Positions 6,841 to 42,722 of a stretch of 64,000 bases of DNA are shown one piece after another. The notes beneath the pieces were generated by a model. That model was not told the origin of the DNA, ran no database searches, and worked only from the letters and a program-made list of their open reading frames with translations. Made by a program: the position numbers and the translations under genes. This DNA is from Salinicoccus halitifaciens. Its GTDB lineage: Bacteria; Bacillota; Bacilli; Staphylococcales; Salinicoccaceae. Each line of letters begins with the position of its first letter. Position 1 is the first letter of the stretch. The DNA lies in assembly GCF_021026095.1 (NCBI RefSeq), contig NZ_JAJNCU010000001.1:372001-436000 (forward strand). Direction: 5' to 3'.

Positions 6841-6859
6841 TGACTTCAATTGTATAGCA

Positions 6860-6958
6860 ATTATCCAGAGCAGACGGAGGGGCTTGGCCCGGTGATGTCT
6901 CGGCAGCGGGCCATAAGGCACTGTGCCAATTCCAACAAGCAGATGCTTGAACGATAAT
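6860..6958 (+). promoter_or_regulatory. SAM-I (S-box) riboswitch
   Basis: The aptamer closes with P1 ATTATC (6860-6865) pairing with GATAAT (6953-6958). Inside are the S-box landmarks CAGAG, GGAGGGGCTTGGCCC, TCTCGGCAGC and GTGCCAATTCCAACA in the right order. S-box RNAs bind S-adenosylmethionine and shut off methionine genes when SAM is plentiful. The downstream metNPQ genes fit this. The expression platform is the terminator at 6968-6995 and an alternative pairing described separately. Confidence 0.93.
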
Positions 6959-6964
6959 CCATCC

Positions 6965-11987: not shown

Positions 11988-12410
11988 TTATTTGACGATC
12001 ATAACCGGCTTATTGGAACGTTTCGCAATCTTGTGTGTAACCTGGCCCAGGACATGTTTAATTTCACGCTTTGCACGCTTGTTGCTCATGACGACGACAT
12101 CGTAATTGTTGTTGTTGATCTTTCTTAATATCGTCTGCTTGATCATTCCGGATTCGAACTCCACCTGATAATTCAGGCCGAGTTCTTCAAGGCGCGTGAG
12201 GAAAGGTTCTAAACGTTCTGCCCTCTCACTGATGATGAAATCAAGATGCTTTCTTCTATACTGGACGCTGTCTGCATGCTCACCTTCAGATATGACATTG
12301 AAAACTGTGATCATATGCTCTGGCTCGTTACGGACGAGTTTCTCCAGCTGTTCCGGGACGTTATCGAATGAATTGCTGAAATCATAGGGCAACAAGATAT
12401 TTTTGTACAT
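11988..12410 (-). CDS. Universal stress protein (UspA family)
   Basis: A 140-residue UspA-fold protein: 'YKNILLPYDFS' at the N-terminus and 'NNYDVVVMSNKRAKREIKHVLGQVTHKIAKRSNKPVMIVK'-like C-terminus (last strand 'KPVMIVK'). The ATP-binding USPs have a Gly-x2-Gly-x9-Gly-(Ser/Thr) loop. Here the first glycines are replaced (NKRAKRE), so this is probably of the non-ATP-binding type. The ATG at 12410 is chosen because GAGGTG on the minus strand overlaps the alternative GTG at 12419. Such proteins help survival under stress by unknown means. The gene is monocistronic and divergent from the ABC-exporter leader. Confidence 0.82.
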   Translation of the reverse strand: MYKNILLPYDFSNSFDNVPEQLEKLVRNEPEHMITVFNVISEGEHADSVQYRRKHLDFIISERAERLEPFLTRLEELGLNYQVEFESGMIKQTILRKINNNNYDVVVMSNKRAKREIKHVLGQVTHKIAKRSNKPVMIVK

Positions 12411-12582
12411 GGTTCCCACCTCTAGGTATTTGTTATTAAAGTATAAGGTACTAGGGTTTTATAAAATAAGCAATCACTTTGACCCAACTTTTTTTAATTT
12501 TTTTCTGCGGGCTCCATTTAAGACAATCTTTAATCGGGCAAAACGTTGATGTGACGCGGCAAATTGAAAAATTAACATCTTA

Positions 12583-12611
12583 TTGAAATTTTACCCTTTT
12601 TGAAATATAAT
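12583..12611 (+). promoter_or_regulatory. Promoter of leader ORF and ABC exporter operon
   Basis: The -35 TTGAAA (12583-12588) and -10 TATAAT (12606-12611) are separated by exactly 17 bases. The transcript would begin near 12618, just before the leader ORF ribosome-binding site. Confidence 0.75.
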
Positions 12612-12641
12612 AAAACCATCATGGAAAAGGAGGACGAAGAC

Positions 12642-12725
12642 ATGACTCATCCAAAAGCTCATTATCATGACAACATTGAACTGAATAGTGCCTCCTGCCG
12701 GGATATTTGCAAACGGATCAGCTAA
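12642..12725 (+). CDS. 27-residue leader peptide upstream of ABC exporter pair
   Basis: A short ORF beginning ATG ACT CAT CCA with a near-perfect AAAGGAGG (12626-12632) nine bases before it. The peptide is MTHPKAHYHDNIELNS followed by ASCRDICKRIS; it has two cysteines and no signal or TM segment. It is followed by two intrinsic terminators before the exporter genes. The end of the ORF contains GCCTCC (12690-12695), which can pair with GGAGGC in the first terminator's 5' arm (12752-12757). This is the layout of a ribosome-mediated attenuator such as BmrB of B. subtilis. Stalled translation near the start would expose GCCTCC and favour antitermination. This mechanism is inferred. The peptide product itself may have no role. 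Confidence 0.6.
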   Translation: MTHPKAHYHDNIELNSASCRDICKRIS

Positions 12726-12750
12726 AAGTGATCAACCCGATATACACCGT

Positions 12751-12777
12751 GGGAGGCGTGCGTCTCCCTGTTTTTAT
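12751..12777 (+). terminator. Leader terminator 1 (attenuator)
   Basis: Stem GGGAGGC (12751-12757) and GTCTCCC (12762-12768) with loop GTGC, followed by TGTTTTT. Its 5' arm can alternatively pair with GCCTCC inside the leader ORF. Confidence 0.7.
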
Positions 12778-12790
12778 GCCTGATTCAAGT

Positions 12791-12818
12791 GTGCACAAAA
12801 ATAGTGTGCACTTTTTTT
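12791..12818 (+). terminator. Leader terminator 2
   Basis: Stem GTGCACA (12791-12797) and TGTGCAC (12805-12811) with a 7-base loop, followed by seven T residues (12812-12818). It is the second terminator between the leader ORF and the exporter genes. Confidence 0.7.
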
Positions 12819-12856
12819 ATGGCAAAATTCTATCATCTTAAGAAAGTGGGTTAATC

Positions 12857-14596
12857 ATGCTGGATTTCATATTTAAATTAAAGTGGTACTTTTCAGAACA
12901 TAAATTCAAGTATCTGCTGGTCATCCTGCTCGCCGTCATCTCCAACCTGATGGAAGTGATTCCGCCGCAGCTGATCGGGTGGACGATCGACCTCATCGAC
13001 ACGGGCGAAATGACGCAGGGCTATATGTGGATGATTTTTATAATATTCGTGATTGTGATCATACTGACTTACTTCCTGCTCTACACCTGGTTTTCTCTGT
13101 TATTCGGGAACGCCTACAATATAGAAAGGATTTTAAGGCTGAGGATGATGCAGAAGTTCCTCACCCTCTCCCCGGGTTTTTATGAACGGAACAAGACCGG
13201 GGAGCTGATGGCGAAGGCGACCAACGATATGCGCAGCATCAACAAGGCCATGGGCTTCGGCCTCATCACGCTCCTCGATGCGAGTACTTTCCTCGGAACG
13301 ATCGTGCTGGTGATGGCCTTCACCATCAGTCTGGAACTCACGGTGTTTGCACTGCTGCCGCTCCCGCTGCTCATCATCATCGAAGTCCAGCTCGGCCGCC
13401 TCATCAATAAACACCATGCGGAAAGTCAGAAATCGTTCGGATATATGAATGATTCGGCTCTTGAAGCGGTGGAGGGTGTGAGGCTGACACGCAGCTATGT
13501 ACAGGAGGACGCGGAGGCCGGGCGTTTCACAAGGATGACCGATGATTATTTGAGGAAATTCATGAAGGTCGAAAGACTCGATGCATTATTTCAGCCGCTT
13601 ACGATCTTCGTCGTTTCACTCAGTTTCATCATCGCCTTCGGATACGGGGCGGTGCTGGTCAACGAAGGCCGCATGTCGGTCGGGGATGTGGTCACTTTCA
13701 ACATATATCTTAATATGCTCATATGGCCGATGTTCGCCATGGGCATGCTGTTCAATATCATGCAGCGCGGCAATGCCTCGCTTGCCCGCATCTATGAAAT
13801 CCTCGATACGGAGGATGATGTGCCGGATGCGGGCACCGGTCATATCTCTTCACATGCAATCGATTTTGATGCAGTGTCGTTCAGCTATCCTTCGAGCAGC
13901 GGCCGGAATTTAAAAGACATCAATATACGCCTTGGGGCAGGGGAGACCCTCGGCATCGTCGGCAGGACCGGCAGCGGGAAGACCACGCTGATCAAGCAGC
14001 TTCTGCGGCTGTATCCGCCGGGCGGGGGCAGCCTGATCATCGACGGCATCAACATCACCCGGCTCGACAGGAAGGAACTGAGGGAAAGGATCGGCTATGT
14101 CTCCCAGGAAAATATTTTATTTTCAAGGACGGTCAGGGAGAATATATTGTTCGGCAATCCCGGGGCGGATGAGGAAACATTGCAACGTGCAATAGAACTC
14201 AGCGCCCTCGATACGGATCTTGAAAGGATGCCGGAGGGGCTTGATACGATGGTCGGTGAAAAAGGTGTCGCATTGAGCGGCGGCCAGAAGCAGCGCATAT
14301 CCATCGCCAGGAGCCTCGTCAAAGATCCGGATATCCTCATCCTGGATGATGCACTCAGCGCAGTGGATGCGAAAACCGAGGCGAGGATCATCCGGGGCAT
14401 ACGCGAAAGCCGGAAAGGCAGGACGACGATCATCGTCACCCACCGGCTGTCAGCAGTCCAGCATGCGGACATGATCGTCGTCATGGATGAAGGTGAAATC
14501 GTGGAGGCGGGCCGCCATGATGAACTGGCAGGCGGCAGGGGATGGTATGCAGAGCAGAATCAATACTACCGGAGCGGGGGTGACGGGAATGGATGA
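12857..14596 (+). CDS. ABC exporter half-transporter with degenerate catalytic site (BmrC-like)
   Basis: A 579-residue type IV ABC exporter subunit: six TM helices in the first 310 residues, then a nucleotide-binding domain. Walker A is GRTGSGKT (369-376), the signature LSGGQKQ is canonical, and the H-loop is THRLS. The Walker B motif ends D497-D498, so the catalytic Glu is replaced by Asp. Heterodimeric multidrug exporters such as BmrC/BmrD and TM287/288 have exactly this degenerate site in one partner; BmrC has Asp at residue 500. It should pair with the next gene to export drugs or toxic compounds. The weak ribosome-binding site (AAAGTGGG) follows the leader attenuator. The stop overlaps the second subunit by 8 bases. 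Confidence 0.88.
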   Translation: MLDFIFKLKWYFSEHKFKYLLVILLAVISNLMEVIPPQLIGWTIDLIDTGEMTQGYMWMIFIIFVIVIILTYFLLYTWFSLLFGNAYNIERILRLRMMQKFLTLSPGFYERNKTGELMAKATNDMRSINKAMGFGLITLLDASTFLGTIVLVMAFTISLELTVFALLPLPLLIIIEVQLGRLINKHHAESQKSFGYMNDSALEAVEGVRLTRSYVQEDAEAGRFTRMTDDYLRKFMKVERLDALFQPLTIFVVSLSFIIAFGYGAVLVNEGRMSVGDVVTFNIYLNMLIWPMFAMGMLFNIMQRGNASLARIYEILDTEDDVPDAGTGHISSHAIDFDAVSFSYPSSSGRNLKDINIRLGAGETLGIVGRTGSGKTTLIKQLLRLYPPGGGSLIIDGINITRLDRKELRERIGYVSQENILFSRTVRENILFGNPGADEETLQRAIELSALDTDLERMPEGLDTMVGEKGVALSGGQKQRISIARSLVKDPDILILDDALSAVDAKTEARIIRGIRESRKGRTTIIVTHRLSAVQHADMIVVMDEGEIVEAGRHDELAGGRGWYAEQNQYYRSGGDGNG

Positions 14597-16340
14597 AATT
14601 AAAAGACTGTTGAAGTATTTCATGGCTCATAAATGGATGTTCATGCTCGGCATTGTGCTGATGGGCATGATGGTCGCTTTTGAGCTCGCCGGGCCGCTCG
14701 TCATCATGAGGATACTTGATGAACATATCGGTCTCGGTGCCGGAAACATCGGCATCCAGCCGGTCATCCAGCTTCTGGGGCTCTATGCAGTGATTAAACT
14801 GTTCCATGCCTTTGCGGCATATTTTGCACAAATCGTGCTCCAGTCGACCGGGGCGAAAGTGGTGCAGGGCATCCGCCATGAGCTGTTCCGCCATATCCAG
14901 AAACTGCCGATCAAATACTTCGATGATCTGCCGGCGGGGAAGGTTGTGGCAAGGATCACCAATGACACGGAGGCCATGCTCGAGTTCTTCACGTTTGTGC
15001 TTCCGATGTTCCTCATAAACGGCCTGACGATGCTCGCAATCACCATCGCAATATTTATCGTCAATGTATATGCAGGCATCGTCATGCTCATATTCGTACC
15101 GGTCATACTGCTCTGGATCGTCATGTACCGGAAATGGTCCAATGACTACAACCACCAAAAGCGTGAAAGGAACAGCGATATGAATGCGATGATCAATGAA
15201 TCCATCAGCGGCATGCCGGTGATCCAAATATTCAACCGGGAGAGCATGGTGGAGCGTGATTTTGCAAAGCTGAATGATGAATACACCGACAGTGCCACAA
15301 GACTCGTCCGTTTGAACGGCCTGACCGGTGATAATCTCGCGGGCACGATGCAGTCGATCGTCTTCGCCCTGATGGTGCTCGTCTTTTCCTCCACTTTCCT
15401 GAGTCCCGGCCAGGCGCTGACGGTGGGGACGATGTATCTGCTCGTGGATTACATCACGCGCTTCTTCAACCCACTATATGAAGTCGTCGGACAAATCGAA
15501 ATTCTGGAACAGGCCAGGGTGGCTGCGGTGAAAGTATTTGAAATGCTGGATGAAGCGGAGGAGAAGACCGATGCGGGCAGGCTTCGTGATTTCGATGGCG
15601 GGATTGAATTCCAGAATGTCGGCTTCAGCTATTACGGTGAACACAGTGTGCTTGAAAACATCAGCATCAAAGTGTCGAAAGGGCAGACGCTGGCGCTTGT
15701 CGGCCACACCGGATCCGGGAAAAGCTCCATCATCAACCTGCTGATGCGCTTTTACGACCCCGATGAAGGGAGAATTTTATTCTCCGGCCAGGACACGTCG
15801 GTGATAAATAAGAAAGACTTGAGGTCGCATATCTCCATCGTACTTCAGGACCCTTTCATATATGCAGGGACGCTGCTGTATAACATCAGGCTGGATGACA
15901 GCAATATCAGCCCGGAAGATGCGGAACAGGCATTGACCGCCGTCGGCGGCAGAGCGCTCCTCGACCGTTTGGACGATGGATTGGACAGCGAGCTCCCTGA
16001 AAGGGGTGCGACACTTTCCCTCGGGGAGAGGCAGCTCATATCCTTTGCGCGGGCCCTTGCATTCAATCCCGACGTGCTCGTCCTCGACGAGGCGACGAGC
16101 AATGTCGACAGCGAGACGGAACAGCTGATCCAGCATGCCATGCAAGTCGTCAGCCGGGAACGCACGACATTCATCATCGCCCACCGGCTGTCCACCATCA
16201 AACACGCAGACCGGATCATCCTGCTTGAGGAAGGGCGGATCAAAGAGGCGGGCGATCATCATGAGCTGATGGCCGCAGGCGGCAGCTATGCCGAGCTGTT
16301 CAACATGCAGTTGATGCCTTCAAATATGTCAGGTTTATGA
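14589..16340 (+). CDS. ABC exporter half-transporter, catalytic partner (BmrD-like)
   Basis: A 583-residue partner subunit with six TM helices and a nucleotide-binding domain. Walker A is GHTGSGKS (K378), Walker B ends D500-E501 with the proper catalytic Glu, and the H-loop is AHRLS. Its signature is LSLGERQ rather than LSGGQ. This is the expected complement of the other subunit: the degenerate ATP site uses the partner's Asp Walker B and this altered signature, and the active site uses this Glu and the partner's LSGGQ. ATG 14589 is chosen, after GGAGCGGGGG. The upstream in-frame starts lie deep within the previous gene. BmrD of Bacillus is longer, with an N-terminal addition absent here. Confidence 0.88.
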   Translation: MDEIKRLLKYFMAHKWMFMLGIVLMGMMVAFELAGPLVIMRILDEHIGLGAGNIGIQPVIQLLGLYAVIKLFHAFAAYFAQIVLQSTGAKVVQGIRHELFRHIQKLPIKYFDDLPAGKVVARITNDTEAMLEFFTFVLPMFLINGLTMLAITIAIFIVNVYAGIVMLIFVPVILLWIVMYRKWSNDYNHQKRERNSDMNAMINESISGMPVIQIFNRESMVERDFAKLNDEYTDSATRLVRLNGLTGDNLAGTMQSIVFALMVLVFSSTFLSPGQALTVGTMYLLVDYITRFFNPLYEVVGQIEILEQARVAAVKVFEMLDEAEEKTDAGRLRDFDGGIEFQNVGFSYYGEHSVLENISIKVSKGQTLALVGHTGSGKSSIINLLMRFYDPDEGRILFSGQDTSVINKKDLRSHISIVLQDPFIYAGTLLYNIRLDDSNISPEDAEQALTAVGGRALLDRLDDGLDSELPERGATLSLGERQLISFARALAFNPDVLVLDEATSNVDSETEQLIQHAMQVVSRERTTFIIAHRLSTIKHADRIILLEEGRIKEAGDHHELMAAGGSYAELFNMQLMPSNMSGL

Positions 16341-16630
16341 AAAGTGTCATTTGTAAATTATATCTTGCTGTATCCCCTTGATTCATAAGTGATATATAGT
16401 TAACATATAGTTATACAAAGACGACATAACAAGGTCACTTGTTCACAGGGACAACACCTTTTGATAGAACACTCTGTTCTAGATATCATATATTATATTA
16501 TTATCTTTCAATAGAGGGGCCGGGAAACCGGCCCCTGTTTTTATGTGATTTTTCCGTAATATATATATTTATTAAGCGTGCCTGGATATGGTATTCTTTT
16601 ATATACATGGTTTACCGGAGGAGTGGCTCA
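16341..16630 (+). other. AT-rich gap with a palindrome and a terminator
   Basis: Contains a perfect inverted repeat TAGAACA-CTC-TGTTCTA (16465-16481) followed by an AT-rich TATATTATATTATTA run, the terminator at 16515-16541 and the promoter region of mreC. No gene is seen. The palindrome is unexplained; its half-sites are one base too far apart for a Gram-positive LexA box. Confidence 0.5.
16515..16542 (+). terminator. Intrinsic terminator after ABC exporter genes
   Basis: Perfect 9-bp stem AGGGGCCGG (16515-16523) and CCGGCCCCT (16528-16536) with a GAAA tetraloop, followed by GTTTTT. Confidence 0.92.
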
Positions 16631-18029: not shown

Positions 18030-18126
18030 AGTTGATAAATTTGTAAACATCAACCGCTCAATCATGGGTCCAAGTGATGAATCCACCTGTGGATGGCGTG
18101 TCTTAAACAAATCAGGAGGTGTAAGT
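18030..18126 (+). promoter_or_regulatory. Probable L21 ribosomal-protein leader
   Basis: About 95 bases of structured 5' leader before rplU in the position of the Firmicute L21 autoregulatory leader. It includes the hairpin ATCCA-CCTG-TGGAT (18081-18094) and ends in AGGAGGTG. The identification rests mainly on position. Confidence 0.5.
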
Positions 18127-42525: not shown

Positions 42526-42722
42526 ATAGAAATATCTGAGAAGTTCGTGATGTGTTGAATTATATTTTGACCTAACACCAATTTAAACGGGAGTCCAATA
42601 GGTTTTCCTTCAAAAAACAAGCCTGTTCGCCAGGACGTTTGGAGTTGGAAACAGGACACCCACCTGCAATTAGCAGGCCAAAATAATCAACAGATACACA
42701 CGGCTTAGCTTGGATATTTCGA
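42526..42722 (+). ncRNA. ssrS: 6S RNA
   Basis: A gene-free stretch that folds as a long rod. The ends close by GAAATATC (42529-42536) with GATATTTC (42713-42720), then TGTTGA (42553-42558) with TCAACA (42687-42692), and CCTGTT (42622-42627) with AACAGG (42650-42655), with hairpins ACCTA/TAGGT and CCTGC-AATTA-GCAGG. Rod shape, length near 195 bases, its own promoter and the site next to rarA, where Firmicutes carry 6S RNA, support the call. 6S RNA imitates an open promoter and holds the housekeeping RNA polymerase. No open frame with a ribosome-binding site exists here. Confidence 0.8.

Follow-up and report, generated by a model that had tools for sequence, protein, structure and literature searches.

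The window, a 64,000-nucleotide stretch of Salinicoccus halitifaciens contig NZ_JAJNCU010000001.1, contains two overlapping genes for a BmrC-type and a BmrD-type half exporter and, directly upstream of the BmrC-type gene, a leader with a promoter, a short open reading frame (ORF) and two terminators, T1 and T2 (Table 1). The length of the BmrD-type protein was counted from the ATG at 14589, a start codon that we chose. A first-pass annotation of this DNA had placed the promoter, the 27-codon ORF and the two terminators before the exporter genes, and all of these were recovered base for base. The complementarity that it had noted between GCCTCC within the ORF (12690 to 12695) and GGAGGC (12752 to 12757) was found in the same place, and the pairing was observed to extend further, to GTGCCTCCTGCCGGG and CCGTGGGAGGCGTGC. 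Pairings between the numbered segments of Table 1 are written below as 1:2, 2:3 and 3:4.

Table 1. Positions of the leader features and exporter genes within the window of contig NZ_JAJNCU010000001.1
Feature	Positions	Strand	Remarks
Promoter TTGAAA-17-TATAAT	12583..12611	+	TTGAAA 12583-12588, 17 bases, TATAAT 12606-12611
Segment 1: leader Shine-Dalgarno sequence (SD) up to start codon	12622..12644	+	SD AAGGAGG 12627-12633
Leader ORF, 27 codons plus stop, MTHPKAHYHDNIELNSASCRDICKRIS	12642..12725	+	Own strong SD; translation predicted
Segment 2, GTGCCTCCTGCCGGG, inside ORF; putative 5' arm of antiterminator	12688..12702	+	Folding, co-variation
Segment 3, CCGTGGGAGGCGTGC; putative 3' arm of antiterminator, overlaps 5' arm of T1	12747..12761	+	Folding, co-variation
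T1: hairpin 3:4 (stem 12751-12768) plus U-tract	12751..12775	+	T-run 12771-12775
Segment 4: 3' arm of T1	12762..12768	+	Co-variation
T2: second terminator, stem 12787-12813 plus U-tract	12787..12818	+	Seven-T run from 12812
BmrC-type half exporter, 579 aa	12857..14596	+	Best solved match B. subtilis YheI/BmrC, E 1e-181
BmrD-type half exporter, 583 aa	14589..16340	+	Best solved match B. subtilis YheH/BmrD, E 4.6e-150

The promoter had 11 of 12 consensus matches and was the top of 10 promoter-like sites in 12400 to 16600 (shuffles gave 5.9); a comparable TTGAAA-17-TATACT was seen by eye in two relatives from the genus, L004 and L005. The leader was present as a single copy in its own genome, and the stop codon of its ORF (12725) precedes both T1 and T2. 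Three matches to Rfam 15 were obtained in the window at the gathering threshold, none of them inside 12583 to 12856. Ordinary Rfam matches elsewhere in the window were a SAM riboswitch (6858-6960), an L21 leader (18042-18113) and 6S RNA (42530-42720).

Fold energies of the window leader were unexceptional (z values of -0.29, -0.90 and -1.19), and whole-leader fold stability (z of -0.29) was rejected as evidence. The complementarity of the SD to the ORF (1:2) was also ordinary, with 12 of 41 SD-bearing ORFs of the window having an equally strong match in a comparison for which the leader's own windows were placed one base off, and a dominant 1:2 structure in the window was rejected on these grounds. 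As both the fold z values and the SD:ORF complementarity were ordinary, the window alone did not go beyond chance, and the evidence consisted of conservation and co-variation in relatives.

Distribution of the leader

Ortholog searches, with the own genome counted, gave 4 matches at an E value of ≤1e-150 in the 6 genomes of the genus, 25 at ≤1e-220 in the 33 genomes of the family and 50 at ≤1e-190 in the 157 genomes of the order. An SD and a short leader ORF were detected by script upstream of 46 of the 50 order-level orthologs, and a leader ORF cut by the contig end was visible by eye in one further case (L050). Three loci from small genomes (L048, L053 and L054) were without a leader ORF, yet one terminator was kept before bmrC. 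Wider leaders were obtained from a class search (23 matches at ≤1e-195 in 398 genomes), from the use of a 101-residue BmrC piece as query (8 of the 398 class genomes and 21 of 44 in the genus of one match) and from a scan of named genomes with common ATPase motifs, which yielded many other exporters among at least 80 loci, of which 15 were inspected. The same build was found in many Bacillales, including Planococcus, Neobacillus, Alkalihalobacillus, Pseudalkalibacillus, Gracilibacillus and Halobacillus; it was not seen in the stretches examined of L061, L067, L074, L084, L089 and L105.

The leader design is conserved across the order of the window (taken to be Staphylococcales) and in other Bacillales. 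Comparison of relatives, which the first-pass annotation had named as a check on its proposal, was in its favor both in the frequency of the leader ORF among order-level orthologs and in the co-variation of the pairings. A single published case thereby becomes a comparative family spanning the window's order and other Bacillales, whose members, B. subtilis probably among them, retain the RNA design as the encoded peptide varies freely.

Co-varying RNA segments and leader peptides

Co-variation was examined by comparing the duplex energy of segment pairs from the same leader with that of swapped partners, with permutation within four clades, a procedure that lessens the effect of shared ancestry without removing it. 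Leaders were picked by hand over genera, first 32 and then 42, of which 41 were used (L082, with a cut segment 1, was excluded), and 18 pair types were compared. Own partners paired better than swapped partners for 1:2, 2:3, 3:4 and the arms of T2 (P = 5e-5 for each; 41 leaders). The 1:2 and 2:3 pairings were significant in all four clades (P values of 0.0002 to 0.0052), and a P value of 0.0001 was obtained when one leader was used per genus label (26 leaders). Examples of co-varying pairings are GGAGGAAAAUA with UAUUUUCCUCC in L035, GGUAGUGA with UCACUACC in L045 and GGGUUUGC with GCAAACCC in L153. Values for 1:4 and for segment 1 with the T2 loop were 0.042 and 0.088, respectively, across the 41 leaders, and apart from segment 4 with the T2 loop (see below) the remaining pair types gave P values of at least 0.14.

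These three pairings fit an attenuator with an anti-antiterminator (1:2), an antiterminator (2:3) and a terminator (3:4). The core of 1:2, 2:3 and 3:4 was well supported over the group, as were 2:3 and 3:4 in the window; the putative anti-antiterminator co-varied over the 41 leaders and was no stronger in the window than in ordinary genes. The co-variation of 1:2 over the group suggests that the SD of the leader itself serves as an arm of the switch. The SD is proposed here as the partner of segment 2, which goes beyond the published bmrB model. The first-pass annotation had described the 2:3 pairing correctly and had overlooked that of the SD with the GCCTCC-type segment, ordinary as this is in the window.

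Leader peptides differed from genus to genus, from MTHPKAHYHDNIELNSASCRDICKRIS in the window to MINVILSSVNQFYSVASFDRF, MKLLIQQTHQISISQPNIHTSLISQL, MNKLRRLVTTQQEIQYFPPAVHKSM and others elsewhere. A CCUCC motif lay inside the ORF in 14 of 42 analyzed leaders and was read in frame 1 in seven, in frame 0 in five and in frame 2 in two of these. The pN/pS ratio, a rough value as silent sites are under RNA constraint, was obtained for nine groups of at least three leaders with one genus label and one length, pairs more than 35% different being excluded; the window's own leader differs in length and belongs to none of these groups. The ratios were 1.19, 1.84, 0.61, 0.44, 1.03, 1.86, 0.58, 1.21 and 1.11, that is, near or above 1 (1.03 to 1.86) in six groups and 0.44 to 0.61 in three, with the value of 0.44 coming from three relatives in the window's genus. 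The comparison separates what is kept, the RNA segments, from what is mostly free, the peptide, and the pattern suggested that the conserved element is mainly the former. The peptide of the window had been called unrelated to BmrB in the first-pass annotation; it does differ, a fact that is unremarkable given that the peptide varies between genera and the RNA segment is kept.

Erm leaders act by peptide-specific arrest of the drug-bound ribosome. Were the leader peptide to stall a drug-bound ribosome at one codon in this manner, its sequence would matter, as might be suggested by the ratio of 0.44 in the three relatives from the window's genus, by those of 0.58 and 0.61 in two other groups and by the retention of NSAS in all four members of the genus examined. 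The NSAS residues, however, carry segment 2, which was read in three frames across genera, and such arrest is at odds both with the divergence of the peptides between genera and with the ratios of 1.03 to 1.86 in six of the nine groups; we regard it as unlikely. An amino acid starvation attenuator that senses charged tRNA-His would account for the three His codons among the first nine of the window leader (H3, H7 and H9). It is extremely improbable, as relatives in the genus (e.g., MLKIIAAKSHNKESNSASLHGCF) and other genera have no His run and keep the rest of the design and as the controlled gene is of a drug-exporter type.

The identity of the leader frame was also examined in B. subtilis. 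Locus L161 was called B. subtilis-type on two grounds: its 101-residue piece has the same sequence as the solved BmrC, and its bmrB-like frame, of 162 bp with a GTG start and ending 119 bp before bmrC, matched the published geometry (PMC4191407). Among the leaders of its genus (21 in number, with L178 excluded as cut during extraction), an ATG frame of 23 to 32 codons was present behind a strong SD in 20 of 20. In L161 this is a 23-codon frame, MPRNLRVYQTVSYWRGKPFVLFS, the ATG of which lies 16 nt upstream of the annotated GTG in a different, overlapping frame. In 8 of 20 leaders the annotated BmrB frame, when looked for 16 nt on without alignment, had a start at the matching place and ran for 50 codons or more without a stop; five of these leaders were among the eight closest relatives. 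The annotated frame was rejected as the conserved one, being intact in 8 of 20 leaders versus 20 of 20 for the ATG frame. When variable columns were counted by codon position in the B. subtilis group, the two frames gave 7/5/5 and 4/5/6 and could not be told apart.

An in-frame BmrB-GFP fusion was reported to be fluorescent from a plasmid and dark at the native locus, and its authors concluded that the annotated frame is translated (PMC4191407). The translation-null construct also carried four 5' UTR changes that removed alternative starts or ribosome binding sites (PMC4191407), so that the published data are compatible with the 23-codon frame. Sequence comparison suggested that, even in B. 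subtilis-type genomes, the conserved leader frame is probably a different one from the annotated BmrB frame, which had served as the reference leader in the first-pass annotation, and the leader reading frame of this model organism is hence put in question. As described in the available part of PMC4191407, bmrB has 53 codons, a GTG start and a terminator inside the frame, unlike the window, in which both terminators lie outside the leader ORF. Because the annotated frame was intact in 8 of 20 leaders, a terminator inside a 53-codon frame probably does not define the bmrB type.

Ribosome position and two serial terminators

Transcripts were folded up to T1 with a ribosome footprint of 31 nt. 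In the window, the probability of T1 was 0 to 0.1 when the RNA was ribosome-free or the P site was placed at codons 2 to 12, rose to 0.5 to 1.0 for codons 13 to 25 and was ∼0 when the ribosome stood at the stop or at either of the last two codons; in the folding model, T1 formed only when segment 2 was covered. The model suggested that translation through the middle of the ORF would make T1 in the window and that one ribosome waiting at the stop would not. The first-pass annotation had proposed folding with and without a ribosome-covered leader; T1 depended on ribosome position in these folds, and no T1 formed without a ribosome.

The hairpin 3:4 was usually formed without a ribosome when all 41 leaders were folded (mean of 0.84). 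A drop of at least 0.3 was detected in 19 of 41 leaders with a ribosome at codons 1 to 4 versus 1 of 41 with a ribosome at codons 6 to 9 (Wilcoxon P = 4.5e-9). In another 19 leaders the hairpin was present without a ribosome and an early ribosome lowered it by less than 0.3, and in 3 of the 41, including the window, it was already disfavored without a ribosome. Hence, the start-specific response of the relatives was absent from the window fold, in which T1 did not form without a ribosome. By eye, folds with a stall at codon 7 contained 2:3 in 8 of 14 leaders and lacked it in 6. Lincosamides act early in elongation. The group pattern fits, by inference from the folding model, a sensor that detects ribosome arrest near the start and needs no particular peptide.

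We consider it probable that this leader is a ribosome-mediated transcription attenuator of the bmrCD operon in which the position of the ribosome, and not the sequence of the peptide, is sensed. Segment 2 would pair either back with the SD of segment 1, as an anti-antiterminator, or forward with segment 3, as an antiterminator, and segment 3 would otherwise pair with segment 4 to give T1. A ribosome at mid-ORF would cover segment 2, T1 would form and transcription would stop; a ribosome arrested near the start would leave segment 2 free to form 2:3, T1 would fail and the polymerase would proceed towards the exporter. The signal would then be drugs that arrest the ribosome early, as we infer from this arrangement. 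In B. subtilis, bmrCD is induced by lincomycin, erythromycin and chloramphenicol by way of a terminator corresponding to T2, and blocking of bmrB leader translation lowers expression and abolishes induction (PMC4191407). The latter result would be predicted by a 1:2 default. If ribosome position is what is sensed, one exporter could respond to 50S inhibitors from several chemical classes.

A U-tract followed T2 in 42 of 42 analyzed leaders. With a criterion of at least 5 U in 6, a U-tract was also found after hairpin 3:4 in 8 of 9 leaders from the window's family, 0 of 10 from other families of the order, 8 of 13 from Bacillaceae-like and other Bacillales and 2 of 10 from the B. subtilis group. 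T1 is thus hairpin 3:4 with an added U-tract, and T2 is the terminator that all 42 leaders share. Two terminators in series, as first annotated for the window, are real and occur in several lineages; the extra U-tract that makes hairpin 3:4 a terminator distinguishes the window from bmrB. Mutations C136 and C140 of bmrB raise expression and abolish lincomycin control (PMC4191407). Both fall within T2 of L161 (bmrB nt 118 to 141), and T2 is for this reason the positional counterpart of the drug-controlled bmrB terminator.

In minimum-energy folds, T2 was formed in every state of 21 of 21 leaders (14 plus 7), so that loss of T1 by itself should not be enough to turn on the exporter. For T1, folding and co-variation both gave an antiterminator that excludes the terminator; no structure exclusive with T2 was found in the minimum-energy folds of the 21 leaders. 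The BmrB-type logic claimed in the first-pass annotation held for the leader ORF, for the competition between antiterminator and terminator and for the BmrC/BmrD-type exporter, but the folds contained no exclusive structure by which T2 would be opened. The predicted persistence of T2, together with the single terminator kept by L048, L053 and L054 without a leader ORF, would agree with two constitutive, leaky terminators that insulate the exporter and with an incidental leader ORF. This reading is very unlikely, as segment 2 of the ORF co-varied with the SD and with the T1 arm and as the B. subtilis equivalent of T2 is controlled by lincomycin and needs leader translation (PMC4191407).

One candidate for the opening of T2 within a ribosome-sensing attenuator was detected by co-variation. 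Segment 4 co-varied with the apical loop of T2 (P = 0.001 for 41 leaders, with a Bonferroni value over 18 pair types of ∼0.02, and P = 0.0038 with one leader per genus label [26 leaders]). The values by clade were 0.0092 (f4), 0.047 (Bacillaceae-like; marginal), 0.18 (f1) and 0.19 (B. subtilis group). Relative to single-base shuffles, this pairing stood out in 11 of 31 leaders, compared with 3 of 31 for a control that paired the T2 loop with segment 3. The window value for segment 4 with the T2 loop equaled that of the shuffles (z of -0.02). Invasion of the T2 apical loop by segment 4 is a possible means of opening T2 and was the sole candidate found. We tentatively suggest, as a possibility that falls short of being likely, a relay attenuator in which the place of the ribosome is sensed and two serial terminators are placed under one event. 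The SD would do the sensing: segment 2 would be released only by a ribosome standing on the first few codons and would then capture segment 3, leaving segment 4 unpaired to invade the apical loop of a T2 that is otherwise too stable. The same design would operate in B. subtilis bmrCD by way of the 23-codon frame.

Other pairings were rejected as means of opening T2. Segments 2 or 3 with the T2 arms, and segments 1, 2 or 3 with the T2 loop, gave P values of 0.09 to 1.0, a range that also held the two reversed controls of the co-variation test, and the T1 tail alone with the T2 loop gave a P value of 0.48. The T2 3' arm with its own segment 3 (P = 0.998) and the T2 5' arm with its own segment 2 (P = 0.993) leaned to avoidance; their own segments gave weaker pairing than swapped segments did, as though the T2 arms were shielded from cross-pairing with the switch.

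Related leaders and second short ORFs

The window resembles bmrB/bmrCD, as described in the available part of PMC4191407, in the type of exporter, in the set of terminator, antiterminator and putative anti-antiterminator and in the position of the published terminator, which is that of T2. The traits of the B. subtilis bmrB type also include an AbrB-repressed promoter and induction by 50S drugs. Induction of the BmrD protein by lincomycin has been reported (PMC9226507). The drug-resistance leader erm(K) contains two adjacent Rho-independent terminators (PMC4335068, citing Kwak 1991), and the window is similar, by this description, in having two adjacent intrinsic terminators after its leader ORF; the erm(K) attenuator controls a methylase and not an exporter, and membership is not claimed. 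In B. subtilis vmlR, an anti-antiterminator is blocked when an antibiotic stalls the ribosome on a very short uORF, and there is a further translational layer (PMC9226507). Unlike the window, vmlR has a three-codon uORF, a different gene and, in the portion of that report available, one described intrinsic terminator. Salmonella mgtCBR resembles the window in having two control elements in one leader and differs in having two separate ORFs that sense two signals (PMC3641672). A uORF that senses several classes of ribosome drugs has been described (PMC12121999). Further literature drawn on was PMC5418344, PMC10898510 and PMC4319486.

A second short frame of 12 to 40 codons was detected between T2 and bmrC in 45 of 50 Bacillales leaders (among L060 to L083 and L153 to L178; 54 leaders, with L074, L084, L089 and L105 excluded as unrelated or mis-started), a count from a script that demanded no SD and had no chance control and in which 22 of the 45 came from one genus label. 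The last two residues of these frames were G-G, G-D or S-G, with an E or D before them in the listed cases, as in MPSIRKNEIKDCKEKLEGG and an ending of IMIKESLEGD. The window had no such frame between T2 and the exporter. The stretch between bmrB and bmrC has been termed an intergenic region (PMC4191407), and a second short ORF was not mentioned in the available parts of that report and of the bmrB-type literature, in a literature search that was not aimed at such an ORF. The second short ORF may perhaps be a translational layer.

In genus g6 of the window's family (L010 to L015 and L018 to L021), a different second short ORF was seen by eye between T2 and the exporter. A CCCUGGU-type segment in these leaders can pair with the end of the second ORF or with the SD of the exporter, in the manner of a translational attenuator. 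By eye, the second ORF of L020 was apparently one base short compared to that of L018 and so ended in a different frame.
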